64,000 bases of DNA from Pelobacter seleniigenes DSM 18267 (GTDB lineage: Bacteria; Desulfobacterota; Desulfuromonadia; Desulfuromonadales; Geopsychrobacteraceae). The position numbers were made by a program, and so were the translations under genes. The notes below the pieces were generated by a model. The model was given only the letters and a program-made list of their open reading frames with translations. It did no database searches and was not told the DNA's origin. Shown piece after piece: positions 9,194 to 64,000 of the stretch. Each line of letters starts with the position of its first letter. Position 1 is the first letter of the stretch. The stretch is from NCBI RefSeq assembly GCF_000711225.1, contig NZ_JOMG01000002.1, forward strand, positions 1,624,501 to 1,688,500, in the 5' to 3' direction.

Positions 9194-9242
9194 AGTTTTT
9201 CCTTTCCTTGCGAGCAGCATAATAACGGCAGTTTTCCAGAGT

Positions 9243-9430
9243 TAGCTAGTTTTCATCCGGAAACGGCTCTTTTCCGTTGTAGCAGTGTCAATCTGCGGGC
9301 TTATTTGTGCGGCGTAAAGAACTACGCCTCCGCATAAGCCTTTGATTTCCTTGCCACAACGAAAAATTGCTCGTTTCCAATCTGAAAACTTATGCGTTGG
9401 CATCCGGAGTTTCCGGATGCCAACTAGCTA
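9243..9430. repeat. Dispersed CATCCGGAAAC inverted-repeat element, long copy (MITE-like)
   Basis: A 188-bp element with 22-bp terminal inverted repeats: TAGCTAGTTTTCATCCGGAAAC at 9243-9264 and its complement at 9409-9430, with two mismatches. The right part also forms a tight hairpin with 13-bp arms (9396-9408 and 9412-9424) and a 3-nt loop. Its inner sequence shares CTCTTTTCC and CCAATCTGAAAACTTA with the short copy at 6374-6444. It has no ORF. Together the two copies bracket the kinase gene. Confidence 0.75.
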
Positions 9431-49939: not shown

Positions 49940-50303
49940 AATCCCCTCCGGATTTTGTTATGCGTATATGGCACGATTTGAGTGACGTGCACCGCCAGAT
50001 TATCATAAATCATTATCCTTGCAAGGATCTTCGAGGGGCGATGACTGAGAAGCCCGGAACGGTCCAGCCCCTTTATTGCTGGATGTCCAAGCGCCATCAG
50101 GGGTTGAAAAAATCCATCCCTGGACACGACAAGCTGTTGAAAAACCGCCTGCTACAGTTTCGGCTGAATCCCTTTTTGCCATGCCATCGTGACTATAAAC
50201 AGCGCTTGCCCCGCGATCTGGCTGAGATGGCGGGCTATTGATTTTTTTAAAAATGAATGATATGTTCACTTTTAATTTGGGCATGCCTCATGGAGTCAGG
50301 AAG
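49940..50303. other. Divergent intergenic region with hairpin repeats and a TetR operator candidate
   Basis: 364 bp between DUF4019 and TetR genes. Two copies of the GTTGAAAAA repeat lie here (near 50103 and 50133). An AT-rich imperfect palindrome (TGAATGATATGTTCA, inside 50249-50273) before the TetR gene is a candidate autoregulatory operator. Confidence 0.4.
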
Positions 50304-50936
50304 ATGGTGCAGGTTTTAAAAGATAGTGTGAAAAAGCAGATTGCAGATGCGGCTGAACGCATGTTTGCAAAAGTAGGATACAAGAAAGCTACAGTGGGGA
50401 TGATTGCCTGCGAAGCGGGTGTTGCAACGGGAAATATCTATAAATATTACGCTAATAAAGAAAAGTTGTTCAATTCAATCATCACGCCAGAGTTTGTTGA
50501 AGAGTTCAAGAGACTGACTCGAAACCGCGTGGCAATTCTGATTAATCCGGCCAAGGCAGAGGAAGCTCGATCAATAGAAACTGGAGACGCGGGAAAATTA
50601 TTGCGCTTCTGGATTGATAATCGCCTGAAAGTCATCATCCTTCTGGCGAGAGCGGAAGGATCAAAATATGAATCATTTACCGAGGAATATATCCAGGCAA
50701 TGGCAAAACAAGCGCTGGACAACCTCCCTTCCGCACACCCGAATCTCAATGATAACGAAGTTTTCCGATTTACCTTTAATACCCGGTTGGCAGATACCGT
50801 AAGGGGGATTGTTTCAATTCTGCAAACCTTTGAGAACGAGGAACAGATAGTCGCTGCATTTGCGACAAGCTGGGCTTATCACTATGCAGGGATCAACGCT
50901 GTCATCAGCTGGTGCAGCCTGCCGAATGACGAATAA
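50304..50936 (+). CDS. TetR-family transcriptional regulator
   Basis: 210 aa from ATG 50304. N-terminal HTH with AAERMFAKVGYKKATVGMIA and GVATGNIYKYYANKEKLF, then a helical ligand domain. Codon use is more AT-rich than the neighbouring genes. It precedes a small helical protein gene, probably in one operon. Ligand unknown. Confidence 0.88.
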   Translation: MVQVLKDSVKKQIADAAERMFAKVGYKKATVGMIACEAGVATGNIYKYYANKEKLFNSIITPEFVEEFKRLTRNRVAILINPAKAEEARSIETGDAGKLLRFWIDNRLKVIILLARAEGSKYESFTEEYIQAMAKQALDNLPSAHPNLNDNEVFRFTFNTRLADTVRGIVSILQTFENEEQIVAAFATSWAYHYAGINAVISWCSLPNDE

Positions 50937-50960
50937 AAATTGAGTTTAAAGGGTTGAGTT

Positions 50961-51293
50961 ATGAGCATATTCAGTGTCATTGCCGAAGCAAAAATCCAGG
51001 ATTGGTTTCGAAGAAAAAGTGCCGGCGAAATTGAACAGCCCGCAATCATTGACCCAATTGATACTGTTAAATCTGCTGAAACCTATTTGCTGGAGGATAT
51101 TTTGGCGCTGATAGAAAAGGCCAGCAAGGTCGATCCAGAAAGACGGGAGCTGATGATACAAAAATCAAGGCAGATGGAACTTCAATTGCTGACGACCTTA
51201 GAAAAAGATGGTTACAATTTGATGTCACAAATGACCGCAAAAACCATTCAAGATCATAGGAAAAAGTTCAGGCCCGAATCGCCACTTTCCTGA
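50961..51293 (+). CDS. Small helical protein of unknown function, co-operonic with TetR
   Basis: 110 aa. MSIFSVIAEAKIQDWFRRK at the N-terminus slightly recalls DUF1992 proteins but lacks the rest of that domain. The remainder is charged and helical (YLLEDILALIEKASKVDPER, RQMELQLLTTLEKDGYNLM). AAAGGG precedes the ATG, 24 bp after the TetR stop. No function assigned. Confidence 0.65.
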   Translation: MSIFSVIAEAKIQDWFRRKSAGEIEQPAIIDPIDTVKSAETYLLEDILALIEKASKVDPERRELMIQKSRQMELQLLTTLEKDGYNLMSQMTAKTIQDHRKKFRPESPLS

Positions 51294-51391
51294 CCGGCGG
51301 AAACTGACTCTCAAGAAGCATTGGTTTAGCTACAGGTTGCCTAGACTCAGGCCTTAAACGGTCTGCCAGAGCAGGTTCAAGCTTTTGCAAG

Positions 51392-51934
51392 TCATCGCAG
51401 ATATTGAGGGTAACGTTCGATTTTGGTTTGTAATCTGTCCGCTAAAAACTGATTGGCGGTGCCAAGCTGCTCCAAGATAGTGCAGGCTTCGTCTCTGTAT
51501 TGCAAGATCTTCTCATTGTTCCAGTGGGCCGGCGGGGGCTGGAGGTTGGTGATTCGATCACACAATTTGACCATCCAGACCGCCCTGGGCTGCTGCTTGA
51601 TTCTGCGCAGACTGTCGAGCATCTGCTCCTGTTTGGTTGGCAGTTGCAGGTTTTTGCTGAGCGCTGAAACCCCGGCAGCCACCTCGTGACCAAACTCCTC
51701 AGCAATGTCTTGGTAGGTCGTCGGAGTATCCTCGATGGCGTCATGCAGCAATGCGCATTGGATCAGCAGGTTGGGGTTTTCTATGCGGTGATTGTCAGCA
51801 ATGGCGGCGGCTGCTTCCATGGCTACCAGCCCCAGATGGTTGATATACGCAATATCGCTGCCCGGGAGGGTTTGCCCAAGATGGATTGTCGAGGCAAAGT
51901 TCCAGGCTTTCAGGTAAGTATCTTGGTTCCACAT
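51392..51934 (-). CDS. HD-domain (p)ppGpp hydrolase-like protein (MESH1/SpoT-HD type)
   Basis: 180 aa. INHLGLVAMEAAA with the first His, LIQCALLHDAIEDTPTTYQD (HD pair plus ED) and MVKLCDRITNLQPPP (final Asp) match the RelA/SpoT hydrolase domain without a synthetase part. A small alarmone hydrolase role is therefore likely. Ribosome binding site weak. Confidence 0.85.
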   Translation of the reverse strand: MWNQDTYLKAWNFASTIHLGQTLPGSDIAYINHLGLVAMEAAAAIADNHRIENPNLLIQCALLHDAIEDTPTTYQDIAEEFGHEVAAGVSALSKNLQLPTKQEQMLDSLRRIKQQPRAVWMVKLCDRITNLQPPPAHWNNEKILQYRDEACTILEQLGTANQFLADRLQTKIERYPQYLR

Positions 51935-51961
51935 ACTGAAGTTATTCTTTCTTCGGCTGAA

Positions 51962-52246
51962 TCAGCCGTGACGATGTTTTTTTACTTTTGCCTGATAAAC
52001 CCGGCTAACGTGGATCAGGCTGGCCAGCTTGAGAGCTGGTTTGATCAACAATTGCGCACTGCCCGCGATAAATAACCAGGTGCCACGTTCGACCAGGGAA
52101 TTTGACAGGAAGAAAAAGCTTCCTATTAAAAACCAGACCGCGATCAGCAGATCATTGATTGCGCCTATCGCTTCATACCTGCGCTGAATAACAATATGTT
52201 CCCGGCCTAAATCCAGTTCCAGATTGCGGCTGCGGTATTTTCTCAT
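51962..52246 (-). CDS. YrhK-like small membrane protein
   Basis: 94 aa with two membrane helices (INDLLIAVWFLIGSFFFL, GTWLFIAGSAQLLIKPAL). The segment QRRYEAIGAINDLLIAVWFLIGS is typical of YrhK-domain proteins. AGGTAGGG precedes the start. Function unknown. Confidence 0.75.
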   Translation of the reverse strand: MRKYRSRNLELDLGREHIVIQRRYEAIGAINDLLIAVWFLIGSFFFLSNSLVERGTWLFIAGSAQLLIKPALKLASLIHVSRVYQAKVKKHRHG

Positions 52247-52260
52247 TCCCTACCTTTTAC

Positions 52261-52310
52261 AGGTTGTTGAAAAAGTCCATCGGCTCGACAGACTGTTGTT
52301 AGGCCACCTG
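52261..52310. repeat. Hairpin-forming dispersed repeat, copy 4
   Basis: AGGTTGTTGAAAAAGTCCATCGG and the following CTCGACAGACTGTTG belong to the GTTGAAAAA repeat group (compare 47114-47165 and 50103-50160). It lies just past the lipoprotein stop at 52311. Confidence 0.4.
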
Positions 52311-52865
52311 TTAAAACTGGCAAGCCTTGGGCAAATTTGAAGTGACCTCCAGAAGATGTTTTGCGCCATTTTCAAGCTTGTAAACAGTGACTCCGTCGAT
52401 CGGTTCGACAACAACCTCATAATGAGCATTCTCTTCAGGAGTGAAGACCGACGAGGTATAAAAATGCTTATAGCAGTCTCGCTGGCAGGATTGGAATTTG
52501 GTCCGAAAGCTGTTGACCAGTGGGACTCCCGCCTTGACCTGGAAGGTCGCCGAAGTTGTGCTGGGTTTTCTCAGGTCCAGACGCCCCATAATTGCCGGGC
52601 TCTTGGAACATTCAACAGACTGATAAAGATAAATGACAGTCGGAAAGGTGCGACGGTATTCCGTGCTGATCATTTTCCCGGCAAAGGTCTCTTTTTCCGC
52701 TGCGGGAACAATCTCTCCGGTCTGTTCGGAAATGTAATGATTGACGTCATTTCGGATATAGGTGACCGATGCCAGGCCGCCTGACCGATCGACCGAATAA
52801 ATGGGTTTTGCGCAGCCTGACAGCAGGATGAGGAGAATTGCCAGCACCAGCAGTTTTTTCATCAT
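52311..52865 (-). CDS. Lipoprotein of unknown function
   Basis: 184 aa. Signal peptide with lipobox LLSGC (Cys18), then a beta-rich mature part with three further cysteines (VECSKS, FQSCQRDCYKHF). GGGAG precedes the ATG. No family recognised. Confidence 0.75.
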   Translation of the reverse strand: MMKKLLVLAILLILLSGCAKPIYSVDRSGGLASVTYIRNDVNHYISEQTGEIVPAAEKETFAGKMISTEYRRTFPTVIYLYQSVECSKSPAIMGRLDLRKPSTTSATFQVKAGVPLVNSFRTKFQSCQRDCYKHFYTSSVFTPEENAHYEVVVEPIDGVTVYKLENGAKHLLEVTSNLPKACQF

Positions 52866-52893
52866 GATCTCCCTGGATGATCCGATAGGTGAT

Positions 52894-53229
52894 TTATTTC
52901 GAGGCCTTCTTGGTTTTTTTGATTTTAGGCGGAGGCAGTTCTTGTTCGGTCAAACGGACCAATTCACTGAGCCAGTCCTTGTCTTCAAGCCGATCTTCGA
53001 TCAAAAATGACGGCTTCGCCCCCTCGTATGCCGGGGCTTCCACAACATCGTCTATGAATGCCCGGCCGGCACTGGTTGGTTTGACAAACAGCTGATTGTC
53101 ACAGATTAAAGCGACGACCTTTTCGTTGCAGTAAACGGCATATTCCCCAAACATTTTCCGGGTACGGATGTTGCCGGCCGCAGCTATTTGTTCGCTGACA
53201 AACTGCACAAAATTTTTATCTGATGCCAT
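52894..53229 (-). CDS. TfoX N-terminal-domain protein
   Basis: 111 aa. Text such as NIRTRKMFGEYAVYCNEKVVALICDNQLFVK is diagnostic of the TfoX/Sxy N-terminal domain. The C-terminal domain of Sxy is absent and the tail is Lys-rich (PPPKIKKTKKASK). A competence role cannot be assumed for this short form. Confidence 0.9.
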   Translation of the reverse strand: MASDKNFVQFVSEQIAAAGNIRTRKMFGEYAVYCNEKVVALICDNQLFVKPTSAGRAFIDDVVEAPAYEGAKPSFLIEDRLEDKDWLSELVRLTEQELPPPKIKKTKKASK

Positions 53230-53508
53230 AAATTCTACTCATTGTTTTGAGTTTGTTACCTGTTTGCCTTAAAAAAGCGGCACTGTCAAGGCATGGCGGG
53301 CCGCAGCAACAATGCCGATATTGGTCATTCACCTGTGGTTTCGTTGCGGATGATGTAAATAAACCGCTGCGCAAATAAAAAACAGTCCCGGCAAAGATTC
53401 TTATGGTGAGCCTGGGGCTGATCAGTGGTAAGCGATTTCATGGTAAACCCAGCACGAGAGATAGTCCCCCCCGCCTCAAGTGCTTAACAGGCTCTTTTTG
53501 ACCATTTG

Positions 53509-54015
53509 CTAAGGAACGGAAATAACCTTGACCTTGTAAAAAGTCAATTGCGGCTTACCATCGTATTCGCCGACAAGTTTACCATTATTGGAAAGCTTCA
53601 GTTTGCAGCCTGATGCAGCTTCCGCCCCTGGAATTCGGTTGATTGAGAACTCTGCGCTCAGGTTACTGTTTTCCTCAGCCGTGAGTTCAAGGCCAACAAA
53701 ACAACCACCATCATACCCGGGTCCGCCCTGTTGTAACCGCAATGAGAATTTAAGTTTTTCTCCGGCGGGAATGATATAGCTATCGGCCGGGTGATCATCC
53801 ACCAGAATGGGCTGAGCGCCCCAGCTTTCATCCTGATTGTAAAGGGAAACCCAGACCGCCTCAGCTTTAAAAATACCTCGTTTCGCCAGGTTGATAGCAT
53901 TGACGTGCAGTTGAGCTGTTGGCCCGCTTTTCGGCGGCACAATTTTTTGTGGGGCGCAGGCGGCCAAAGAAAAGCAAATCAGGATAAAAATCGCTATGGT
54001 CAGTAATTTTTTCAT
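53509..54015 (-). CDS. Lipoprotein of unknown function
   Basis: 168 aa. Lipobox SLAAC (Cys20) after a short signal, then a beta-sandwich-like mature part (VWVSLYNQDESWGAQPILVDD, YIIPAGEKLKFSLRLQQGG). CGAGGA precedes the ATG. No family recognised. Confidence 0.72.
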   Translation of the reverse strand: MKKLLTIAIFILICFSLAACAPQKIVPPKSGPTAQLHVNAINLAKRGIFKAEAVWVSLYNQDESWGAQPILVDDHPADSYIIPAGEKLKFSLRLQQGGPGYDGGCFVGLELTAEENSNLSAEFSINRIPGAEAASGCKLKLSNNGKLVGEYDGKPQLTFYKVKVISVP

Positions 54016-54074
54016 GGAAGATCCTCGTTGAGTTGGGTGTTACGAATAAAATCACTTTTCGTCCATATGATGGA

Positions 54075-54123
54075 CGACTTTAACCGGTTGCGCTACGCAA
54101 TCGGTTGGGATGATTGGTTATGA
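54075..54123 (-). other. Possible short attC-like site at the 3' end of the VOC gene
   Basis: On the minus strand the VOC stop codon lies in TTCATAAC, followed by CAATCATCCC, an imperfect stem (AACCGATTGCG and CGCAACCGG) and GGTTAAAG. This mirrors attC layout (TAAC start, GTTA end), but at about 46 bp it is shorter than usual, so I rate it only moderately. Confidence 0.4.
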
Positions 54124-54558
54124 ATCTGCTGCTAGTCTCATGTTGCCATTGTCATCAAATGTGAACATCGGCCCCCATGCGACTTCCCAATAGTAACCGT
54201 CAAGGTCAGCAAAATAGCCACTGAAACCACCCCAGAAAGTCTCCTGCGGTTCTTTGACGATTTTGGCCCCGGCGTTTTCGGCACATTTCATCATGGCGAC
54301 CACTTCGTCTTTGCTGCGGGCATTATGGGCCAAGGTGATGCCGCTGAAAGCGTTACGTGTTGTCGGCACCTGCGGCGAAATGTCTTCAGCAAGTTTGTCG
54401 AGCGGATAAAGGGCCAGCCATGCTCCGGGGAGTTCAATAAATGTGATGGCCGTAGAGGCGGTGTTCGGAGGAGTGTTCAGCACCTGCCGGTAAAATTCCG
54501 TGGCCCTGGGCAGATCGTCCACCCCGAGAGAGATCACGGTCATTCTTGGTATTTTCAT
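54118..54558 (-). CDS. VOC-superfamily protein (glyoxalase-like)
   Basis: 146 aa. VISLGVDDLPRATEFYRQVL and a second half with AENAGAKIVKEPQETFWGGFSGYFADLDGYYWEVAW. Ends inside an attC-like sequence, so it may be a gene cassette. GGGAGG precedes the ATG. Substrate unknown. Confidence 0.88.
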   Translation of the reverse strand: MKIPRMTVISLGVDDLPRATEFYRQVLNTPPNTASTAITFIELPGAWLALYPLDKLAEDISPQVPTTRNAFSGITLAHNARSKDEVVAMMKCAENAGAKIVKEPQETFWGGFSGYFADLDGYYWEVAWGPMFTFDDNGNMRLAADS

Positions 54559-54904
54559 TTTTTACCTCCCGATAGCTTATGAGCTGATTTGATGGTTGAG
54601 CAAGTAAGATCTATCTGGGCAAAGCCAAGGTCGATGAATTTGACTACAAAATCCGATTATTCATTCGTTGAGTCCACGATGTCCTGGCACTCAACACCTA
54701 AAACCTATAGAAAAGTTTCAATCATAGAAATCTCTACAGCTGTGTTTTCCATTCGTTGCAATAATTCTTTCTGTAGACCAGCATTTAGGCGGGGGAAAGA
54801 CAATTTTTATTCCTTTATATTCCTGGGGGAATCAAGGGTCCAGTCTGCTTTTGGTTTTTCCCGCACAGATTTCAATAGTGGCCTGAACTTATGCAAGCAC
54901 AGCA
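54559..54904. other. AT-rich intergenic region, no gene seen
   Basis: About 345 bp, AT-rich, without credible ORFs, RNA genes or repeats. No attC-like site is visible before the MFS gene end. Confidence 0.4.
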
Positions 54905-56137
54905 TCACACCCGGCGAGTGCCGAGTTCCGTGAGCCAGTAGAGAAACGAGATTCCGCCAAACGTGCCACCCAGCAACGCGACGCCTGGCCATCCACTCAG
55001 CTCAAACATATAACCCGATGATGCGGACCCGACCACCCCGCCAAAGAAAAAACAGGTCATGTACGCTGTCGTTATTCGGCTTCTCGCCTTGGGGTTCAGC
55101 GTGTAAATGACGCTCTGGTTCAGGATCTGCGTACCTTGCTGACCAATATCAAGCAGTACGATACCGACGATGATAGCGGAAAGGTGCGTACTGAAGACAC
55201 CCATGATCACAAACGCGAGAACGACCAGCCCGATCAAAACCCCGGTGCCTATCCGGGTGCCGCCACGGTCATGAATGTGCCCTGCGAAACTGGCGCTCAG
55301 GGCTCCCGCAGCGCCAATCAGGCCAAACAAACCGATGGTCGAGTCGTTGTAGCCGTAAGGTGGCCGTGCGAGAAGGAATGCCAGGGCGGTCCAGAATACG
55401 CTAAACGCTGCAAATCCTAAGGAGCCATAGACGATACGCCGTCTCAGTAATGGTTCATCACGAAACAGCTGAATCACCGAGCCAATCAGGGCCGAATATG
55501 ACATACGCGTTTCGCCTTGGCTCTGTGGCAGCATCCGCCACAGCACGGCGGTTTGAACGAACATGCAAATGGTTGCCAGCCCGAAAACAACGCGCCAGCC
55601 AAAAGCGTCAGCAATGAATCCGGAAACCGTACGAGCCAGTAGAATACCAAGCAGCAGGCCTGTCATCACCCGACCTATCACGCTGCCACGCTGCTCGTTA
55701 GCGGCCAGGGTCGCAGCAAATGGCACCAGCACTTGCGCTACGACCGAAGTAAGGCCGATGGCCAGGCATGCAATAAGGAAAGAACCAATGCCTGGCGAGA
55801 CCGCGGCGCCGGCCAGTGCCACCGCAGTCCCTGAGGAAACTACCGTGATGAGTCTGCGTCGTTCAAACAAATCACCGAGCGGTACAATCAGTCCGAGACC
55901 GATGACATAGCCTAGTTGTGTCATCGTAATAATAAGACCGGTTGTGCCTTCAGAGGCCCCGAAGCTTCGTGCCAGCGTGTGCAGCAGCGGCTGCGCATAA
56001 TAAAGATTCGCCACGGCCACACCGGATGCGACAGCCATCACATAGACCAGCGAATCATTTGGCTTTAAGGGGAGGATCTTCAGCGATGTTTGGTCGTCAC
56101 TGTTATGCTGTTGAATCGTCAAGTTAACACTCCCCAC
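54905..56137 (-). CDS. MFS transporter, DHA1 (12-helix) type
   Basis: About 410 aa, 12 membrane helices. Motif A-like GLIVPLGDLFERRRLITV after helix 2; ANLYYAQPLLHTLARSFGAS and LLARTVSGFIADAFGWRVVFGLA are typical of DHA1 efflux proteins. The start is unclear: GTG 56137 lacks a ribosome binding site, while TTG 56122 follows GGGGAG. Substrate unknown. Confidence 0.88.
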   Translation of the reverse strand: MGSVNLTIQQHNSDDQTSLKILPLKPNDSLVYVMAVASGVAVANLYYAQPLLHTLARSFGASEGTTGLIITMTQLGYVIGLGLIVPLGDLFERRRLITVVSSGTAVALAGAAVSPGIGSFLIACLAIGLTSVVAQVLVPFAATLAANEQRGSVIGRVMTGLLLGILLARTVSGFIADAFGWRVVFGLATICMFVQTAVLWRMLPQSQGETRMSYSALIGSVIQLFRDEPLLRRRIVYGSLGFAAFSVFWTALAFLLARPPYGYNDSTIGLFGLIGAAGALSASFAGHIHDRGGTRIGTGVLIGLVVLAFVIMGVFSTHLSAIIVGIVLLDIGQQGTQILNQSVIYTLNPKARSRITTAYMTCFFFGGVVGSASSGYMFELSGWPGVALLGGTFGGISFLYWLTELGTRRV

Positions 56138-56424
56138 CGCATCATGTGCGGGTAGCAGGTGACGAGAAGATAATTCGGTTCCGTGGGCTTCTGGCGAATT
56201 TGCTTAACTCCGCTCAGTTCGGTTGATCTACAATTATTCATTATTCTCATGACTTCAGCAAAGAGCACTTCTCCCCAGGATAATTCAATATCGGTTTGGC
56301 ATATGGGAGAGATGTCATTAACCCCTTGAAATCTAAGGGCTGATCTGACCCCGATGATTGGCACACCCAACGCTTTTGCAAACCCATGGAGGGATTTTTC
56401 TAACAACCTGCGGATTGTTCTGAT
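56138..56424. other. Region upstream of the MFS gene, possible mobile-element scar
   Basis: 287 bp. A minus-strand 95-codon frame (56119-56406) overlaps the MFS start and matches nothing I know. CCGCA/TGCGG hairpin sequences sit at the MFS start, and a GGGGTCAGATC motif near 56350 is often seen around REP-type transposase remnants. No confident feature. Confidence 0.3.
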
Positions 56425-57063
56425 TTAAGCGGATGCTGCTCCAAATGCCGCCCGTGTAAAATTCTGCAGCTTTCTGACAATCGATTCCCGTTCTTTGTCA
56501 AATAGCTCTGTCCCGTGGGCATCCCCCGGGTAAAATAGCAATTCTTTTGGATTTTCAAAAAGTTCGAACATCCTGCGAGTATCGCTTGCGCCATCGTCAT
56601 TTTCCGAATTTATCAAGAGCTTGGGAATTTTAATCCTGCTCAATTCATCCTTACTGTAAAAGACAGTTCCTTCATATTCGATAGGAGCTGAAAAAGCCAC
56701 GACACCAACAATAGAACTGTTCTTTATCTGGCGAGTTGCGATTTTTATGGATGCGACCCCACCCCTGCTTGCTCCAATAAGAATAATCTTCTTCGCACCT
56801 GCATCACAAATAAATGAAATTGCATCTTCAAGAGTTCTTGATTGATCATCCATATGCTGAAAATAGTCATAGGTAAGGACCATATACCCGGCAGAGATCA
56901 AGTCTCCAATAATTGAATCCCATTCACTTTGATCATTGGTATCCATGTTGGAAAGGATAATTGCCAAATGGCCTGATCCATAAAGGTTGCCATTGGTAAA
57001 CCTGCTATCCTGAAATGATTGTGAAATTGGAATACGGACAGATTTTTTGTTGATTAATTTCAT
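56425..57063 (-). CDS. Alpha/beta hydrolase (dienelactone-hydrolase-like)
   Basis: 212 aa. Nucleophile elbow IGASRGGVASIKIA, Asp in LINSENDDGASD and His in YPGDAHGTELF complete the triad. AAGGACTC precedes the ATG. More AT-rich than the genes to its left. A weak attC-like hairpin lies at its 3' end, so it may be a cassette. Substrate unknown. Confidence 0.82.
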   Translation of the reverse strand: MKLINKKSVRIPISQSFQDSRFTNGNLYGSGHLAIILSNMDTNDQSEWDSIIGDLISAGYMVLTYDYFQHMDDQSRTLEDAISFICDAGAKKIILIGASRGGVASIKIATRQIKNSSIVGVVAFSAPIEYEGTVFYSKDELSRIKIPKLLINSENDDGASDTRRMFELFENPKELLFYPGDAHGTELFDKERESIVRKLQNFTRAAFGAASA

Positions 57064-57309
57064 TTGCTGAGTCCTTTTGCTGCCTGACTTTTTGCTAACA
57101 GGTTCGGTCGTGCCGGGGCAGCTTAGTACAAAAGGAAACCACCTGGTTTTACAAGGGGATAGTTACTCTCTCCACGGGAGTTTTATGCTCCAAGACTCGC
57201 TGTGGACTATGTTGATTATAGAGATACGCCTAGTGCCCTGTTCAGTTAGTTGTTTGGATAATTAATGCTGCCGGCTAGTTATGCAACTATAGCGACCAGA
57301 ATTGATTGA

Positions 57310-57600
57310 TCACCTCTTGAGCCAGATCTCCAATTCACATTCAGTCCCGTTACAGCCATACGAGAATACTGCTATTTGATGCTCATCTGCAGCAACTCCA
57401 TAGCACCTTTCACTCCCCTCAATCTCCACCTGAGCACAGAGATACGTGCTGTTGTCATCCAATAGCTTGTTTTTAGTGCCATTGGGGCACTTACACATAT
57501 TGTTGACATAATCGCCGCTGAGGACATTCAGGGTCTGAATGGTTCTCAGTTCCTCTATTCCGAGATTATGAAGCCTGTTGATGATCTCTTTCTGTGACAT
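57310..57600 (-). CDS. Small protein of unknown function
   Basis: 96 aa. N-terminal helix LHNLGIEELRTIQTLNVLSG, then Cys-containing NMCKCPNG, TYLCAQVEIEG, ERCYGV and GCNGTECELEIW. A good GGAG precedes the ATG. Probably a cassette gene, since it lies at the edge of the attC array, but no clear attC sits at its 3' end. Confidence 0.55.
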   Translation of the reverse strand: MSQKEIINRLHNLGIEELRTIQTLNVLSGDYVNNMCKCPNGTKNKLLDDNSTYLCAQVEIEGSERCYGVAADEHQIAVFSYGCNGTECELEIWLKR

Positions 57601-57851
57601 GGTAACTCCAGCTTCAGGGTAAACTTCTTGGCATGGTCCAATTCCGGTCTATCTGATCGGCTAACTAGAATCCCCTGGAAGTGCCTTATTATCACTTCAG
57701 GAGAGGAGGGACCGCAAATTTATGACGTCAATCGTGAGCTGATTTTTTAGCCGCGTCAACAGGTGAAAGGTTTCCGCTCGACTTGAATAAAGAGAAAGAA
57801 AATCAAGGCGTTCACACCCCTCAAAACCCATCCGATATATTTGCTTTATCG
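57601..57851. other. Intergenic region at the left edge of the cassette array
   Basis: About 250 bp without a credible gene, between the 96-codon gene and the first confident attC site. It could be a cassette without an ORF or chromosomal border. Confidence 0.35.
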
Positions 57852-57930
57852 CTATAACGACCGGGCTTGTCCAGCCACAGGATAAGATCGTGGCTCGTCC
57901 CTCGCGCTATCTATCATTATTCGTTAAAAT
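57852..57930 (-). other. attC site of the LUD-domain cassette
   Basis: On the minus strand it begins TTTTAACGA at the LUD stop and ends TCGTTATAG. The inner stem GAGCCACGATC, GTGGCTGG is imperfect, as in attC. Outer TAACGA and TCGTTA pair exactly. About 78 bp. Confidence 0.8.
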
Positions 57931-58550
57931 CCATAATCACCTTCAACAATAAAAACTTTTATTCGCTCAGTATCAAACTGACCCTGGATTATTGTGAAGT
58001 AATTGCAAATTTTGTCTTCTGCTTTACAGTTCATGCATTTTCCGCTACGTACACAAGGTGTGCTTTTCCCTAATCTTTTAGCATCAATTGGGGCAGCGAC
58101 ATTTCTAACTCTACTAAATGCTTCGACTTCTGATATAACAATTTTATTGGTTCCGCAAATCAAAATAACCTTTGATGGTCCATATATAATTGGTGCGACT
58201 CGACTTCCATTGCCATCAAGGTTGTAAATCTTTCCCTCAGTCGATAGTGCGTTTATTCCAGATAAAAAAAGATCTGCACCAAAGTTTTTTATATATAAAT
58301 CCCTTTTTTCTTCACTAGAAATATTTTCTTTGTATTTATCTAAAAAATTAACATTAGAATTTCTCAGTAAAGAGTAAATCCCAAGTTCTTCTAATGTTAT
58401 AGAATCTCCGACACCAATAGTCATTTCTGAAGTTAATCGCTCTTTTATGCAGGAAACTAGCGCTTCTTTTGAAGGAAAATACAGTGCTTCAATTCTATTT
58501 CTCGATAACGAAGATATTGTTTTGTTAATTTTTTCATCAATCTCTTTCAT
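57924..58550 (-). CDS. LUD-domain protein (LutC/YkgG-like), gene cassette
   Basis: 208 aa. RIEALYFPSKEALVSCIKER, MTIGVGDSITLEELGI, GADLFLSGINALSTEGKI and PSKVILICGTNKIVISEVEA match the LUD (DUF162) domain. The C-terminal cysteine patch CVRSGKCMNCKAEDKIC resembles an Fe-S or zinc site. LUD proteins act in lactate oxidation in LutABC or alone in other oxidoreductase roles; no lut genes adjoin. Strongly AT-rich compared with the window. Stop codon is inside the attC. Confidence 0.85.
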   Translation of the reverse strand: MKEIDEKINKTISSLSRNRIEALYFPSKEALVSCIKERLTSEMTIGVGDSITLEELGIYSLLRNSNVNFLDKYKENISSEEKRDLYIKNFGADLFLSGINALSTEGKIYNLDGNGSRVAPIIYGPSKVILICGTNKIVISEVEAFSRVRNVAAPIDAKRLGKSTPCVRSGKCMNCKAEDKICNYFTIIQGQFDTERIKVFIVEGDYGF

Positions 58551-58572
58551 TGATCTTTCCGGGGAGGTTAGA

Positions 58573-58675
58573 TTTTAACGGTTCATGAAGGCCGGCGGCG
58601 ACGCGAAGTTTTGTTCACCACCACAATTTGGTTTTGCTTTTCAATTTTGCACAGACGTATTTTCCGTCCGGTTAG
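58573..58675 (-). other. attC site of the DUF2846 cassette, major part, interrupted by an IS
   Basis: Minus strand: ends GAACCGTTAAAATC at the left; the other end CTAACCGGACGG is broken by the IS inside GGTTAG and resumes at 60333. Rejoined, the site reads ATTCTAACC to CCGTTAAAA. It shares CAATTTGGTTTTG and TTTTCC-TCCG blocks with the attC at 62021-62116, confirming it as one attC. Confidence 0.8.
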
Positions 58676-58689
58676 TTTGATACTTAGTG

Positions 58690-58760
58690 CAGGCCCCCTC
58701 CAGGTAGCGGACCATCCGCTATCCTTTGAGTAACCATAACCCTCAAAGAAAGGAGCCTGC
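58690..58760 (+). promoter_or_regulatory. Structured leader of the IS transposase gene
   Basis: Nested inverted repeats: GTGCAGGC at 58688-58695 with GCCTGCAC at 58753-58760, TAGCGGA/TCCGCTA, and CTTTGAG/CTCAAAG. The leader could fold into a stem covering the ribosome binding site (AAAGGAG) and limit translation. Confidence 0.5.
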
Positions 58761-58763
58761 ACC

Positions 58764-59807
58764 ATGAGATTTTACACGAAACAGCATCAGTTTTATTGCG
58801 GTGTCGATCTCCATGCCGACGCCATGTATGTCTGCATTCTCAACGCAGTCGGTGAGATCGTTGTTCACAAGAACATTCCGACCAAACCGAAAGCATTTCT
58901 GCGCCTGATCAAGCCGTACCGTGAAGGTCTTATCGTCGGTTGTGAATGTATGTTCACCTGGTACTGGCTGGCCGACTTCTGTGCCGATGAAGGTATTAAT
59001 TTTGTCCTCGGACATGCTCTTTACATGCGGGCCATTCATGGAGGCAAGGCCAAGAATGACAAGATCGATTCGCATAAAATCGCCGTGCTGCTGCGCGGCG
59101 GCACTTTCCCGTTGGCTTATGCCTATCCTGCAAAGATGCGGGCGACCCGTGATCTGCTGCGGCGGCGTAATCATCTGGCTCGGAAGCGGGCTGAACTGAT
59201 TGCCCATATTCAGAATACCGCATCGCAATATAATCTGCCTGATCCTTTAGGCTGTGTCGCAAAACCGAGTCAGCGCGAAGGATTGCCGCAGAAGTTCAAA
59301 GACCCCATTGCCCGAGGAATGATAGAAATCGATCTGGCCACAATTGAACACTACGATCAGCTGCTTGGTGTCTTGGAGCGCCAACTCGAAAAGGTGGCCA
59401 TGAGCCATGACCCCGTCAGCCTGGCACTGCTTAAATCCATTCCCGGAGTGGGCAGGATTCTTTCCCTGGTTATCCTTTACGAAATTGAGGATATCGCCCG
59501 TTTCCCCCGTGTCCAGGACTTTATCTCCTACTGCCGGCTGGTCAAGCCGGCCAAGGAATCAAACGGGAAGTCTTACGGCCATTCCGGCAAGCGGATTGGC
59601 AATGCTCACTTGCGCTGGGCCTTTGGAGAAGCCATCATTCTCATGCTCAAAGGAAATAAACCCATGCAGCAGCAAGTGCAGAAGATGGCGAATCGCCATG
59701 GCAAAGGCAAGGCTTTGGCGAATCTTTCCGCTCGGCTGGGGCGAGCGGTCTATGACATGCTGAAGAATCAGGTGCCTTTTGACCAGGAATTGTTCTTAAG
59801 GTCCTGA
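58764..59807 (+). CDS. IS110-family transposase
   Basis: 347 aa, intact. DEDD-type N-terminal domain: GVDLHADAMYVCI, GCECMFTWYWL, AKNDKIDSHKIA. C-terminal Transposase_20 domain: LLKSIPGVGRILSLVIL, FISYCRLVKPAKES, and the Ser-type segment GHSGKRIGNAHLRWAFG. AAAGGAG precedes the ATG. It reads opposite to the cassettes. No frameshift or stop, so the element may be active. Confidence 0.95.
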   Translation: MRFYTKQHQFYCGVDLHADAMYVCILNAVGEIVVHKNIPTKPKAFLRLIKPYREGLIVGCECMFTWYWLADFCADEGINFVLGHALYMRAIHGGKAKNDKIDSHKIAVLLRGGTFPLAYAYPAKMRATRDLLRRRNHLARKRAELIAHIQNTASQYNLPDPLGCVAKPSQREGLPQKFKDPIARGMIEIDLATIEHYDQLLGVLERQLEKVAMSHDPVSLALLKSIPGVGRILSLVILYEIEDIARFPRVQDFISYCRLVKPAKESNGKSYGHSGKRIGNAHLRWAFGEAIILMLKGNKPMQQQVQKMANRHGKGKALANLSARLGRAVYDMLKNQVPFDQELFLRS

Positions 59808-60318
59808 TTCGGGAGGAGGCGGATCAGCCGGAAAGCCTAACTGGTGAGAACCAGCTATCAAGATCGCTCACGGGCCGATAGAAGAGAAACTTCTGGGAGA
59901 GCCATCCCACAGCAAAGGCCCGGTGATCATGAATCTCTTCAGCCGGTTTGCGTTGATTGGAGGTCCGTCTCGCTCCCTCATATTTTGCGCGATGGTCGAA
60001 TGCGGCCCGCGCCGGTTCTGCCCCTGACCCGATTCCGTAGCTAACTGGGATCATCGGAACGCCAGATGAAGCCCGCCCTTATTGACTGGAACGGCACCAG
60101 GGTCCGCACGTGTTTCCAGGTGGCAGAAGATCAGGATGCAACCAAAGGTCCGGCTTCTGTGGATAAGAGCCTCGATAAGTGTTTGGGAGCAGAATCGTGA
60201 CTGCAGCCCGTTGCAAAGCCCAAGTCAGAACCCGGATGGTTGCTAGTAGATCAGTCGCTTGTCAAAGAACGAAAAGATGAATCTTTTACGTTAACGCTAT
60301 TCTTTACTCTTGACGGCC
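59808..60318 (+). ncRNA. Candidate bridge-RNA region of the IS1111-type element
   Basis: About 510 bp of non-coding sequence inside the element downstream of the transposase, where IS1111-group elements carry their guide (bridge) RNA. It contains short stems such as CTGGT/ACCAG near 59840. Exact RNA ends and the two guide loops were not worked out. The call rests on position. Confidence 0.4.
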
Positions 60319-60341
60319 GGGGGCCTGATAAGGGTTAGAAT

Positions 60342-60776
60342 TTAAAGTGCCAACTTGCATTTTTTTAACTCTTCAATGGCCAAGCCTTTATCAACCAAGT
60401 AAGCAGTATGCTCGAAAACCATGGCAGCATAATTTTTTGAAGAAATGCTTACAAAATATGTTTTTCCGGCTTCAACGGTAAACTTTAAAACCCTGTCGAT
60501 GTTTTGAGTGTCGGTAAAAAGAAATATCTCCCCAGGATCAATCTCTTTTACCAGGTAACTTTGATTACTTAGTTTTGGGGATATTCTTACGTTATTTAGA
60601 ACCACTTGGTAACTAACAGCTGCACCCGTCATTGCCCAAGGTCTATAAATGTAAAGTAGGGCCTTATCGGGACGATTACTTTTGACGTCAGTAAAAATGG
60701 GTCCTTTGGCAGCACATCCTGATAAGATAAATACAAGTGCTATCAATAAAAATATAAATGTTTTTCTATAAGTCAT
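60342..60776 (-). CDS. DUF2846-like lipoprotein, gene cassette
   Basis: 144 aa. Lipobox LSGC (Cys21), then RPDKALLYIYRPWAMTGAAV, VVLNNVRISPKLSNQSYLV, IDPGEIFLFTD and VEAGKTYFVSI, which match DUF2846 lipoproteins. AT-rich. Its attC is split by the IS just downstream. No strong ribosome binding site. Confidence 0.82.
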   Translation of the reverse strand: MTYRKTFIFLLIALVFILSGCAAKGPIFTDVKSNRPDKALLYIYRPWAMTGAAVSYQVVLNNVRISPKLSNQSYLVKEIDPGEIFLFTDTQNIDRVLKFTVEAGKTYFVSISSKNYAAMVFEHTAYLVDKGLAIEELKKCKLAL

Positions 60777-60786
60777 AAATTTCGCT

Positions 60787-60846
60787 ATTCTAACGGTAAA
60801 ATTCAGCGGGCGCCGTAGGCGATCCGCTGGAATTATTGGTTAGCGA
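60787..60846 (-). other. attC site of the GIY-YIG-like cassette
   Basis: Minus strand TCGCTAACC to CCGTTAGAAT, about 60 bp. Inner stem AATTCCAGCGG, CCGCTGAATT is imperfect, with an extra base, the classical attC form. The gene's stop TAA is in the first TAAC. Confidence 0.88.
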
Positions 60847-61310
60847 TTGCATGCAATTGCATGATTATAAATACGAACAGCTGCGTCCCTGTGCCATTGC
60901 TCTGATGGTGAAAAATGAATTTCATGCTGGTGTGTAGGCCATTGCCCTGAGAGATGGCGGCAAGCGAACGCAACCTCTGCTTCAATTGTTTCCATGACAT
61001 GCAGGGGAGCATATACGCCATTAATTTTCCCGGTCCAAATGGATAATTTTAAATTTGTTTCTAAAAATTTCCATTTATAACCGTGATACCCACCAGAACC
61101 ATTAGCCTTGAACCCAAAACTTAACCGAGAAGCCATAGGCTGTTTTGCAATACCAACGTAAAGCAATGAGTCGTCACACGAAATAGTATAGAGCTTCGCT
61201 ACGCCTCGCGTCGTCGCTGGAGCTGAAAACTTACATTCTTTCGATCCCCTTGAGAGACAGTACCATCCGCCTGAAAGGCTCAATTCATAATCTAGGGGAT
61301 CGTCTAGCAT
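60840..61310 (-). CDS. GIY-YIG-like protein, gene cassette
   Basis: 156 aa. KLYTISCDDSLLYVGIAKQ, MASRLSFGFKAN and GYHGYKWKF resemble the GIY-YIG core (Y-T-I, Y-V-G-I, Arg) and EAEVAFACRHLSGQWPTHQHEIHF holds the usual Glu region. If active it would be a small nuclease. It starts within 20 bp of the neighbouring attC and lacks a ribosome binding site, common for cassettes. AT-rich. Confidence 0.65.
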   Translation of the reverse strand: MLDDPLDYELSLSGGWYCLSRGSKECKFSAPATTRGVAKLYTISCDDSLLYVGIAKQPMASRLSFGFKANGSGGYHGYKWKFLETNLKLSIWTGKINGVYAPLHVMETIEAEVAFACRHLSGQWPTHQHEIHFSPSEQWHRDAAVRIYNHAIACNR

Positions 61311-61320
61311 GGGTATGCTT

Positions 61321-61390
61321 TCGCTAACGGTTCAGCGTAACCGGGCGTCAGCCGGAGGCTGACGATCCGAGTTGACGCACTGGTTATACG
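61321..61390 (-). other. attC site of the GGCT-like cassette
   Basis: Minus strand CGTATAACC to GAACCGTTAGCGA, about 70 bp. Central stem CGTCAGCCTCCGGCTGACG is perfect, flanked by imperfect pairs. The gene's stop TAA is in TATAAC. Confidence 0.88.
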
Positions 61391-61992
61391 TATCCTTCAC
61401 GACACCGCGATAACGCATCTACAAGACTTGAAGTACCAGTCTTCTGCAGTATTTCGTTTTCATAGCCCTGCATCAGTGGCGTTGAGATGCCTTGCCTTTT
61501 TACCGAAAGAAGATAGCTGATACCATCCTTCCCGGACCGCCCGGCTTCGGCCTTTGCGCTTTTGATAGCGAGATCGGCCAACTTTGCGGCATTTGGATCT
61601 GTGATATTGGCTCCAAGCTTCGTATACAGCACAACGTCGAGCCCCGCGAAGTTATTCAGTTTCTCCACCACCATTCTGTTTGGATTTGGCTTGGATGGTA
61701 GCGCGTAATGCTTGTTGGTGCTTTCGTTCCTTGTCTCTCTCCGCCACAACAAGTCTTGCGCCGTTTTCAGGTCTACACCAGCATCCAAGACAAGAATCGT
61801 GGCATGGACGCGGCCCCCACCGATTTCGACAGGAACGACCGTGGGTGCGCCATCACGCGTAGAACTCGACCGGGCAAACTCTATAGAGAATGGAGTTTCG
61901 ATCCCTTCTTTCCGCTCGCAAATGAGCGGCACAATTTCCTTGCCCGGGTCTTCGATTAAAGAGCCGTAGGCGAGAATTCCAACGCGACTCAT
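61384..61992 (-). CDS. Gamma-glutamylcyclotransferase-like protein, gene cassette
   Basis: 202 aa. N-terminal VGILAYGSLIEDPG has the (L)AYGS motif, which binds the gamma-glutamyl group in GGCT folds. The rest is unusual (RMVVEKLNNFAGLDVVLYTK). AGGAGG precedes the ATG. Function in the cell unknown; it may act on small peptides. Confidence 0.7.
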   Translation of the reverse strand: MSRVGILAYGSLIEDPGKEIVPLICERKEGIETPFSIEFARSSSTRDGAPTVVPVEIGGGRVHATILVLDAGVDLKTAQDLLWRRETRNESTNKHYALPSKPNPNRMVVEKLNNFAGLDVVLYTKLGANITDPNAAKLADLAIKSAKAEAGRSGKDGISYLLSVKRQGISTPLMQGYENEILQKTGTSSLVDALSRCREGYV

Positions 61993-62020
61993 CGGTGCGC
62001 CTCCTGAAACGTATCGGTAG

Positions 62021-62116
62021 TGATAAGCGGTGGCGACGAGAACCAGCGTGACCTACCGCAATTTGGTTTTGTATTTCGGGAAGCACCCCGCTATTTTTCC
62101 ATCCGCTTAATTATAT
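62021..62116 (-). other. attC site of the AbiJ-like cassette
   Basis: Minus strand from TATAATTAAGCGG at the gene stop to CCGCTTATCA, about 95 bp. It shares GGCGACG, CGCAATTTGGTTTTG, TATTTTTCC and TCCG blocks with the attC split by the IS. Its end bases differ (TAAG rather than TAAC), so it may be a decayed or variant site. Confidence 0.7.
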
Positions 62117-63067
62117 GGTTGCAAGGTTTTTCTCGGCTGTAGTTAAGAATACCAATGTAGATGCTGTCATATGCAGCATGTATGCAACCAAATAACCTGG
62201 CACTGTTGTTGGGGTAGAACCTTGTCCATGGCCACTTAGCTTGTTTCGGCCAGTTGGAATACTGCTTTCCAACATGCTGCGTAATGAACTTAGCTGCTGC
62301 TGCCAAAATGAAGGAACAAGGTCATTATCAAGACAGACTTGAATTAATGCCTTCGAAGTAGCATTGGCTTGGTATGCCCACTTGCGTTTATCGCATATGG
62401 CTTTCATAGTGCTTTCAAATGCTTTCAGGCAGTCATTAAGTGCCTCTTTGTGCTTTCCATGTCTGTAATGCTCATAAGCACTCAGAAATTCTTGTTGGGC
62501 ACCTTGATAGCTTTTTTCGTTCAGTAACCGCAATGCTGGTTTTACTGCTTCAGAGTGGAGTAACTCAGAATCCACTCGAACAATTTCACCTTCTATGAAC
62601 TGAAAGCCTATTCCATGCTCTTTGAATCTGGCGTTTAGCTCCTCAATGGCATCGTCCACGCTTTCTGAAGCATTTCGCTTATGCAGATAGTCATATTTGC
62701 GGGTGAGTCGATCAATATACCTAAAGCTTAATTCAACAATATCTAGCTGCTTTTCAACCTCGTCAACTTGCAATAGATAATTAGCAAGCTCAGTTAAATA
62801 CATTCTCTTACCATATTTATCTGCTGTTGGAAGCCGAAACATTCCATACTCTCTGCAAAGAGTATCCACGATAAATTTATAAGCAGATTGGACATTGTGG
62901 CCACACCCATAATTGTCGTAATAGTCTTCATTACTTCCAAGTGCATCTGACCAAATATGAACGATTTGCACCCTCAAAGCATTTGGCAGGTCATCGTAGG
63001 TGTAAACATCCGGTACGTCCCCCCTTAAGGCTTTTTGCCTTTTGGAGAATAGGTCAAAAATTGCCAT
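62111..63067 (-). CDS. AbiJ-NTD4/Abi-C-like abortive-infection protein (STM4504/CBY_0614 family), gene cassette
   Basis: 318 aa from ATG 63067 (AAGGAG upstream). N-terminus AIFDLFSKRQKALRGDVPDVYTYDDLP and VQIVHIWSDALG is the AbiJ-NTD4 signature as I remember it. C-terminal KALNDCLKAFESTMKAIC-like helices and GHGQGSTPTTVPGYLVAYMLH match Abi-C/HEPN-like ends. Such proteins are associated with phage-triggered growth arrest. Own attC at its 3' end. Confidence 0.8.
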   Translation of the reverse strand: MAIFDLFSKRQKALRGDVPDVYTYDDLPNALRVQIVHIWSDALGSNEDYYDNYGCGHNVQSAYKFIVDTLCREYGMFRLPTADKYGKRMYLTELANYLLQVDEVEKQLDIVELSFRYIDRLTRKYDYLHKRNASESVDDAIEELNARFKEHGIGFQFIEGEIVRVDSELLHSEAVKPALRLLNEKSYQGAQQEFLSAYEHYRHGKHKEALNDCLKAFESTMKAICDKRKWAYQANATSKALIQVCLDNDLVPSFWQQQLSSLRSMLESSIPTGRNKLSGHGQGSTPTTVPGYLVAYMLHMTASTLVFLTTAEKNLATI

Positions 63068-63088
63068 CAATGCTCCTTCCTATTGATT

Positions 63089-63208
63089 GCATAACGGATT
63101 GATTTAAGCGGCAGCGTAGAAACTTTTGCATAGCACTGGCCTTTTTCGAAACGCACCGCTGTTGAACTGTCCGCTTGAAATATGGGTTGGGCGACGTCCG
63201 TTATACGT
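63089..63208 (-). other. attC site of the TIR cassette
   Basis: Minus strand CGTATAACGGAC to GTCCGTTA-like end (AATCCGTTATGC), about 120 bp, at the long end of the attC range. Outer TAACGGA and TCCGTTA pair perfectly; inner parts AAGCGG, CCGCTT pair too. The TIR gene stop is in TATAAC. Confidence 0.88.
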
Positions 63209-64000
63209 GGGAAAAGCAATCATTTGCAAACTCGCGCAGTCGGTCTCTATTCAGTCGGCCTCGTTTCCTGATTTGTTCTTTTAGTTCTGCTTCGTGCCTG
63301 AGCGCTGATCCCATCTCGTACATTTTCGAGCCATCCCACATATTCTTTAACTCGCACTCCCAAACGTCCTCGTACGTGCCATTGATCCCGATCATCAATA
63401 CATTTCCAGGTGACACTCCCGCCTCGCTGAGACTGCGCGATAAACTTATGGCCTTCCCGTCGAATATCAGACTGTAACTAAACGACCACTTCATTCCGAG
63501 TTCTGGAACTTCTTTGTGCCAAGGAAGTTTTAGAACGTCGATGATGTGGTTGATTGTTTTATCTGCGGTTTCTGAGAGGTCCCAGTCCATCCGGAAAAAT
63601 TTGTCAAAACGGGTTGAGTGCAGATATATCGCCTCACTCAACTTGTCTCGTGCGTTTGGCCATGGGTAGAGTGGTTTGCCGCCAGCAACGATAGACGCCT
63701 CTCGGTCTTTTCCCCAAACGCCGAGCAACTCTCGGAACCCCTGGTCGTAATTGGTGCGAAAATCGGCGTACCGACGGTGCTTGAGGAGGGGCGGTATGTC
63801 ACAATCCTCAACAAGAACAGGCAAGATGAACGTGCCGCTCATCGCGACTTGCGACATGAGGGCTGCATTAAGTTCTTCAGTAACCCACCGAGAGGTCAAC
63901 GCTGCCTGCGATAGGACTATGAGGAAGTATTTGGCCTCAGCCAAGCCTGCATTGATCCCCCCTGGCACGCTGTCACCGATGCGTAGGTCAAACTTGTCAT
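63201..64000 (-). CDS. TIR-domain protein with ubiquitin-like segment (partial, N-terminus outside window), gene cassette
   Basis: About 266 codons seen; the start is beyond the right edge. The first part reads DLRIGDSVPGGINAGLAEAK, YFLIVLSQAALTSRWVTEEL and ILPVLVEDCDIPPLLKHRRY, a bacterial TIR domain. After a linker, MDWDLSETADKTINHIIDVL and YSLIFDGKAISLSRSLSEAG, VSPGNVLMIGING resemble a ubiquitin-like (YukD/EsaB-type) fold. A charged helical tail follows. TIR enzymes usually cleave NAD in phage defence. The ubiquitin-like call is by eye. Confidence 0.75.
   Translation of the reverse strand, partial: DKFDLRIGDSVPGGINAGLAEAKYFLIVLSQAALTSRWVTEELNAALMSQVAMSGTFILPVLVEDCDIPPLLKHRRYADFRTNYDQGFRELLGVWGKDREASIVAGGKPLYPWPNARDKLSEAIYLHSTRFDKFFRMDWDLSETADKTINHIIDVLKLPWHKEVPELGMKWSFSYSLIFDGKAISLSRSLSEAGVSPGNVLMIGINGTYEDVWECELKNMWDGSKMYEMGSALRHEAELKEQIRKRGRLNRDRLREFANDCFSHV

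Follow-up and report, generated by a model that had tools for sequence, protein, structure and literature searches.

The right-hand end of a 64,000-nt stretch of the Pelobacter seleniigenes DSM 18267 genome (here termed the window; C2:1624501–1688500 of a 5.09-Mb genome in six contigs) carries a run of minus-strand genes, each of which is followed by a folded site with GTTR...YAAC ends. An earlier note on this DNA took the run to be a chromosomal integron array with defence cassettes. This raises the question of whether the locus is an integron at all, and if so, whether its cassettes can still be moved and by what. The segment is very probably the cassette array of a chromosomal integron that lost its integrase, and two unrelated kinds of mobile element have later inserted at its attC sites. 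It is an immobilised chromosomal integron, of a known kind.

The cassette genes in the window are all on the minus strand and encode, starting from the right, a TIR-domain protein, an AbiJ_NTD4 + DUF7014 protein, proteins of 202 and 156 amino acids (aa), a DUF2846 protein and a LUD-domain protein (Table 1). To the right of the window there is one more cassette of the array, then an attI-like site, then a cut integrase gene (intI). The cassettes share one orientation, pointing away from the attI-like site. The array sites display the R″/L″/L′/R′ architecture of attC. A covariance model (termed R1) was built from 11 attC sites curated in this array and in a second array of the same genome, and it describes the R and L stems only. 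The AAC of R″ and the GTT of R′ are invariant across the 11 training sites. Their named pairs are formed in 80.0% of cells, compared with 70.8% after shuffling (0 of 500 shuffles as high) and 19.4%–41.0% when the partner is slid.

In the window, R1 matches five attC bodies; all are on the minus strand, and an insertion splits one of the five. Six attC-like sites had been counted in the earlier note; five of these are recovered by R1, but the sixth (positions 57852–57922) is the end of an IS91-family element. Both cores of the AbiJ_NTD4 cassette's attC deviate from the GTT/AAC consensus. The attC body of the DUF2846 cassette is homologous to attC sites at C2:875379 and C2:457662. The remaining window matches up to E 10 are weak (44548–44636, E 0.34; 45109–45179, E 1.5; 10317–10416, E 3.1). 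The locus is a true cassette array, as judged by attC matches to a model of the genome's own sites.

A scan of the whole genome with R1, in which 150 of 1954 candidates were scored, yields 19 matches up to E 10; those outside both arrays are at C5:392680, C2:452949, C1:140562, C1:143090 and C2:1980276. At E 0.001, R1 has matches in 28 of 44 genomes of the family. Among the 16 whose integron integrase passes the cut-off, 14 have matches, as do 14 of the other 28. One relative (genome G017) has 21 of its 23 R1 matches at C1:9158–27101, all on the minus strand, and these adjoin an integron integrase over cut-off at C1:28073–28909 on the plus strand. This layout, with the attC run on one strand and the integrase on the other, is the layout of the window array.

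The earlier note proposed a search for intI to the right, and an intI gene lies from window position 64764 onward, 0.76 kb beyond the window. It is an open frame of 112 aa (L019 9265–9603; L numbers denote loci) that aligns to positions 1–104 of the 315 positions of TIGR02249, with 127.9 and 130.8 bits in two scans against a cut-off of 265. It is an N-terminal fragment, and the catalytic part is absent. A search of the genome with TIGR02249 (19 of 19 first-look candidates scored) gave none at the cut-off. Of six other tyrosine recombinases scanned, one passes the XerD cut-off and one is just below the XerC cut-off, but the integron-integrase cut-off is passed by none. Since there is only a fragment of the integrase, and no other gene at the family cut-off, the array is immobile by its own integrase. 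IntI would once have captured cassettes by attI × attC and attC × attC recombination, and with IntI gone, cassettes would no longer be shuffled by the native integrase. A lack of attC hits and of an integrase, which would have refuted the reading in the earlier note, is not what the genome shows: it has R1 attC matches and an integrase gene, the latter cut short.

Between the intI fragment and the first cassette is an attI-like block of 46 bases, 44 of which are equal to a block that ends the second array. The second array is on the same contig about 0.8 Mb away (L021, L022) and shows nine R1 matches at E below 0.01, of which seven are training sites. No integrase adjoins its attI-like block in the DNA read.

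Two kinds of element are found at the R″ core of attC: an IS1111-type element between the attC body and R″, and an IS91-family end abutting R″. The IS1111-type insertion, which is unnamed in the earlier note, separates the attC body of the DUF2846 cassette from its R″ core. It has subterminal inverted repeats (CAGGCCCCC / GGGGGCCTG). There is one full copy in the genome, with 11 further protein matches at 27% identity or less, and a 123-base piece of its right end sits in the second array. Its relatives in GTDB contigs number 66 and include metagenome-assembled genomes (MAGs) of Planctomycetota, Acidobacteriota and Nitrospirota. Right flanks were compared in 12 relatives and the window: GTTA or GTTG is present in 10 of 10 fully readable ends, one end is cut after GTT and two are unreadable. 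Of 11 relatives scanned with R1, seven lie among attC sites, and 24 of 24 matches are on the strand opposite to the transposase.

The IS1111-attC group includes ISKpn4, ISPst6 and ISPa25, and RNA-guided targeting has been shown for relatives (PMC11187229, in the part available). By analogy, RNA from the non-coding region (NCR) downstream of the transposase may guide the window element to attC. The predicted seekRNA has the candidate segments CUAAC and TTGATTGG. Of 38 loci, 26 have TAACT at 29–54 bases past the transposase and 21 have TTGATT at 130–170 bases. These fit, as putative counterparts, the R″ complement and the L″-side copy described for ISKpn4 and relatives in the available part of PMC11187229.

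The second element is a remnant. Positions 57644–57926 match C2:883373–883654 at 87%, and positions 57604–57656 match C2:881376–881428 at 91%; these are both ends of one element (L012). That genomic copy encodes a tyrosine recombinase and an IS91 transposase (NF033538, 373.2 bits, cut-off 125), and the 71-base terminal unit forms its right end. The unit was found at 43 places in 24 of 136 genomes of the order, this genome included, and 32 of the 43 places were examined (the window, L024 and 30 further loci). In 12 of the 32 there is an upstream IS91 transposase in the same orientation, while two of the 32 loci have no left flank to inspect; where the transposase is present, the distance is 257–267 bases in 11 and 171 bases in one whose flank contains a run of N. 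An IS91-family terminus adjoins GTTC or CTTG. This expected neighbour is the exception here: the sequence directly after the unit is GTTR in 26 of 32 places (GTTAG in 20 and GTTRRRY in 17) and GTTC in two. Among the 12 copies with a transposase, 11 abut GTTA and one abuts GTTC.

The unit and its flank read, in order, GTYCAAC, a hairpin with a bulged A, TATTC and GTTRRRY, and in the predicted fold an R-like box is separated by a spacer from an L-like stem. In an alignment of 29 ends, including a relative of 44% identity (L169), 92.3% of cells pair, compared with 91.2% in shuffles and 35%–42% when slid, and two-sided changes occur at six pairs compared with 1.8 in shuffles (2 of 500 as high); the high conservation of these ends limits the power of the test. 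One R-like box position is paired in just one of the 29. R1 gives no match up to E 10 at the unit in the window, and scores the IS91 end weakly elsewhere (14.2–17.0 bits, in 4 of 30 loci). Hairpins are general at IS91 ends, and the likeness to attC possibly arose by chance or from common needs of enzymes that act on single-stranded DNA.

About even weight is given to the proposal that an IS91-family group of this order docks on attC. The terminus would be half an attC site, made up of GTYCAAC, a hairpin that carries an extrahelical A, and a spacer of five bases; the R″ core GTTRRRY of the target would complete it. GTYCAAC would act as a base-pairing guide to the GTTRRRY target, with the end and the target together forming an attC-like hairpin. 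Arrays without an integrase would become rolling-circle landing pads, and the elements might possibly be able to carry cassettes away.

There is a smaller chance that the group targets only the tetranucleotide GTTA, much as IS91 targets GTTC, and that arrays are struck only for their high content of GTTA. For the IS91 family, the accessible portion of PMC7758954 reports GTTC or GAAC as targets; GTTC adjoins two copies of the unit, and one is located within a region that resembles a diguanylate cyclase. Against this, G follows GTTA at 20 of 25 junctions, compared with 48 of the 272 GTTA that these flanks contain. At 14 of the 29 places with sufficient flank, an opposite-strand gene of 60 codons or more ends 20 nt or less from the unit; 200 draws of random offsets within the flanks give 0.76 such places on average and never more than 4. 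In addition, all 14 R1 matches outside the unit (found in 11 of 30 loci) are on its far side and in one orientation, that of such cassettes.

It is rather improbable that the unit is an ordinary attC of a common type to which an IS91-like element is merely adjacent. The attC-like fold and the weak R1 matches noted above would suit such a site, and for 20 of the 32 copies the DNA examined contains no match to a transposase. The near-constant distance to an upstream transposase of the same orientation in 12 of 32 argues for an element end, and as an attC site the unit would point against the neighbouring cassettes, whose nearest gene already has its stop codon and its R″ core directly beside the unit. 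Least probable is that the integron is still active through an integrase acting in trans, either a missed gene or another tyrosine recombinase; the six contigs, the presence of other tyrosine recombinases, and the several arrays and single cassettes with related attC on three contigs would allow for one, but the genome is rated 100% complete, none of the 19 candidates reaches the cut-off, and the six other recombinases are XerC/XerD-like or unplaced.

Several results weigh against the account of an immobilised array entered at its attC sites by two elements. R1 was trained on this genome, and the top window scores belong to training sites; as the three best-scoring window sites are in the training set, their scores are by construction. 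With only 150 of 1954 candidates scored, the number of attC sites in the genome is a lower bound. No Rfam attC match up to E 5 is found at positions 50000–64000, which is uninformative since Rfam probably has no such family. There is no excess of Pc promoters near attI (one promoter-like site compared with 1.3 expected). Six of the 32 IS91 ends are not followed by GTTR: two have GTTC, L199 would agree after a one-base shift, and the three others (L189, L191 and L200) disagree. The far-side attC matches are limited to the 11 of 30 IS91-end loci already mentioned. The match between guide and flank in the IS1111 group is weak (123 pairs compared with 118.6 in shuffles, p 0.036, at 20 hand-picked loci). 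The TIR and AbiJ_NTD4 cassettes cannot be assigned to a named, validated system.

The 20 loci of the guide-to-flank comparison were taken from 38 by a pattern that requires GTT[AG]; L093 (wrong end), L124 and L134 (no TAACT) were dropped, and L100 was missed by the pattern although it can be read by eye. The guide-to-flank covariation is suggestive only. A count of GTTR over the pattern-picked IS1111 loci as a target motif was dropped as circular, since the pattern itself required GTT[AG]; the 10 of 10 readable ends given above come from flanks taken without this filter.

Table 1. Features at the right end of the window, from left to right.
Feature	Position	Strand	Evidence and remarks
IS91-family remnant	57604..57922	+	Left-end part 57604-57656 joined to right end; interior with recombinase and transposase gone
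oriIS-like terminus of IS91-family remnant	57852..57922	+	Last 71 bases of the remnant; recurs at three other places in the genome
R″ core of LUD cassette's attC	57923..57929	-	GTTAAAA on + strand; overlaps stop codon of LUD gene; abutted by IS91-like end
LUD domain cassette gene, 208 aa	57924..58550	-	PF02589, 141.1 bits
attC body of DUF2846 cassette, severed from R″	58572..58678	-	R1 partial match 58592-58671, 20.5 bits; outside training set
IS1111-type insertion sequence, 1655 bases	58679..60333	+	Ends from comparison with relatives, good to one or two bases
IS110 family transposase, 347 aa	58764..59807	+	DEDD_Tnp_IS110 (PF01548, 58.6 bits) and Transposase_20 (PF02371, 64.9 bits); NF033542, 182.5 bits (cut-off 140)
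NCR, predicted seekRNA source	59808..60333	+	Role by analogy with PMC11187229 (part available)
Candidate target-matching segments in NCR: CTAACTGG, GTTGATTGG, CTAACTGG	59837-59844, 59952-59960, 60041-60048	+	
R″ core of DUF2846 cassette's attC	60334..60340	-	GTTAGAA on + strand; sequence reading
DUF2846 cassette gene, 144 aa	60342..60776	-	PF11008, 55.7 bits
attC of 156-aa cassette	60787..60846	-	R1 46.2 bits; training site
156-aa cassette gene	60840..61310	-	GIY-YIG-like by eye only
attC of 202-aa cassette	61321..61390	-	R1 43.3 bits; training site
202-aa cassette gene	61384..61992	-	gamma-glutamylcyclotransferase-like by eye only
attC of AbiJ_NTD4 cassette	62008..62125	-	R1 28.6 bits, E 1.2e-4; outside training set
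AbiJ_NTD4 + DUF7014 cassette gene, 319 aa	62111..63070	-	PF18863, 92.3 bits (cut-off 34); PF22809, 156.4 bits; NF046078, 419.9 bits (cut-off 150)
attC of TIR cassette	63088..63194	-	R1 match 63088-63193, 60.5 bits; training site
TIR-domain cassette gene, 301 aa	63201..64000, start beyond window (L019 7702-8607)	-	PF13676 (TIR_2), 98.4 bits, over cut-off

The presence of TIR and AbiJ-like genes among the cassettes, as proposed in the earlier note, is borne out by the matches to PF13676 and PF18863. The same note had described the cassette contents as unrelated and AT-rich. They are unrelated; the GC contents of the six genes are 0.325, 0.361, 0.442, 0.516, 0.415 and 0.506, and as all of these are below that of the window (0.54), a description as strongly AT-rich applies to some of them only. 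Pfam, NCBIfam and PADLOC gave nothing at E 0.001 for the 156-aa and 202-aa genes.

The TIR protein has the sequence features of a TIR NADase, a TIR domain over cut-off and a W..EL glutamate that aligns with the catalytic glutamate of AbTIR. The protein falls in no curated system: its best NCBIfam match is 61.4 bits compared with a cut-off of 600, and its best PADLOC match is PDC-S66 (76.6 bits, residues 8–97). The cassette has a single gene and lacks the partner genes of Thoeris, retron-TIR, TIR-pAgo and other systems. At E 1e-20 relatives are present in five other genomes of 395 in the phylum, one of them full length with 59% identity. This relative (L173) has no R1 match up to E 1 across 3.9 kb, and a mobile cassette elsewhere is thus not supported. 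A single-sequence fold of the TIR protein was discarded (pLDDT, the predicted local distance difference test score, 32.5). The AbiJ_NTD4 protein matches the PADLOC candidate PDC-S32 (41.4 bits), and AbiJ relatives up to E 0.01 are not found among solved structures. From their sequences, both TIR and AbiJ_NTD4 are plausible candidate defence genes, and as candidates they would probably be of the abortive-infection type.

Some further observations concern the two arrays and the IS91-like elements. A 184-base repeat, 90% identical, is present to the right of both arrays (L019 9715–9898 and L022 4386–4568), and it is possibly a trace of the events by which the two platforms were deprived of the integrase side. 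One cassette of the second array (L021 8047–8805) encodes hexapeptide repeats (PF00132) and by eye resembles a xenobiotic acetyltransferase.

In 8 of 12 loci, the reading frame of the tyrosine recombinase of the IS91-like element is broken immediately ahead of the HxxR box, where there is a run of 8 or 9 A. The A run is at L012 2130–2145 and in the relatives L155–L157, L159, L161–L163 and L167; L157 has additional frame breaks, the break in L158 is at another place, and there is no recombinase match for L160, L168 and L169. As 7 or 10 A would be in frame, programmed slippage in the recombinase is possible. In L201 the IS91-type end is a near-perfect palindrome (AACGAATAAGGATAGAT...ATCTATCCTTATTCGTT), unlike the other copies. 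At L049 1509–2110 (C5:186080) a cassette-like gene and an IS91-type end lie inside a diguanylate-cyclase-like region, as if a lone cassette had landed outside an array.

There is possibly a third attC-associated element, which is short and has the ends GAGGGTGTAG(A) and CTACAGCCTC. Of 16 such ends in the loci examined, 12 touch AAC of attC sites, in several genomes. They are located at L021 6852–6987, 7957, 9233–9379 and 10106; L027 1935; L049 2106; L072; L112 1509; L142 740; L147 1337; and L162 3439.

The array is a further case, from beyond the well-studied genera, of an immobilised chromosomal integron whose cassettes include candidate defence genes. Unrelated DNA movers appear to exploit attC sites. 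One is a putatively RNA-guided element of the IS1111 type, another is of the IS91 type and has an attC-like end, and there may be a third. Pairing of the IS91 end with GTTRRRY, if it does occur, would give a testable account of target choice in the IS91 family, and a route by which cassettes could move after the integrase is lost. Programs that search for attC could then also mistake IS91 ends for attC sites. The same may be so for ISCR28, at whose ends attC sites are reported in the available part of PMC12772301. That report is the nearest found in a literature search; within the parts of the sources available, the search did not turn up any IS91 group described as docking on attC.

Chromosomal integrons with truncated intI genes, and clusters of attC sites lacking an integrase (CALINs), are described for Xanthomonas in the portion of PMC12444791 that is available. 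The locus described here is similar in that its array appears frozen, with attC-bearing cassettes of one orientation next to an attI-like site and a truncated intI. As compared with that portion, it differs in its lineage (Desulfuromonadales), in having its own attC type and two platforms both without a whole integrase, and in the presence of more than one attC-associated mobile element. Defence cassettes of integrons have been reported (Darracq 2025, Kieffer 2025 and Getz 2025, as cited in the same portion of PMC12444791), and here too candidate anti-phage genes are carried in cassettes. In contrast to those, the two candidates, TIR and AbiJ_NTD4, are known from sequence and are in an array outside Vibrio that has no integrase.

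The IS1111-type element shares with the IS1111-attC group, as far as the available part of PMC11187229 describes it, an IS1111-type transposase, a downstream NCR and an insertion at one end of attC. Unlike ISKpn4, ISPst6 and ISPa25 themselves, it is a divergent relative, and its own relatives reach MAGs of other phyla. The IS91-like element has in common with the IS91 and ISCR families an IS91-family transposase, a hairpin-bearing terminus and an attC-like structure at its end, which here is based on the fold, the alignment and the insertion flanks. It differs from them in that its target is GTTRRRY (the R″ of attC) and not GTTC, and in having an upstream tyrosine recombinase that is broken at a run of eight or nine A.

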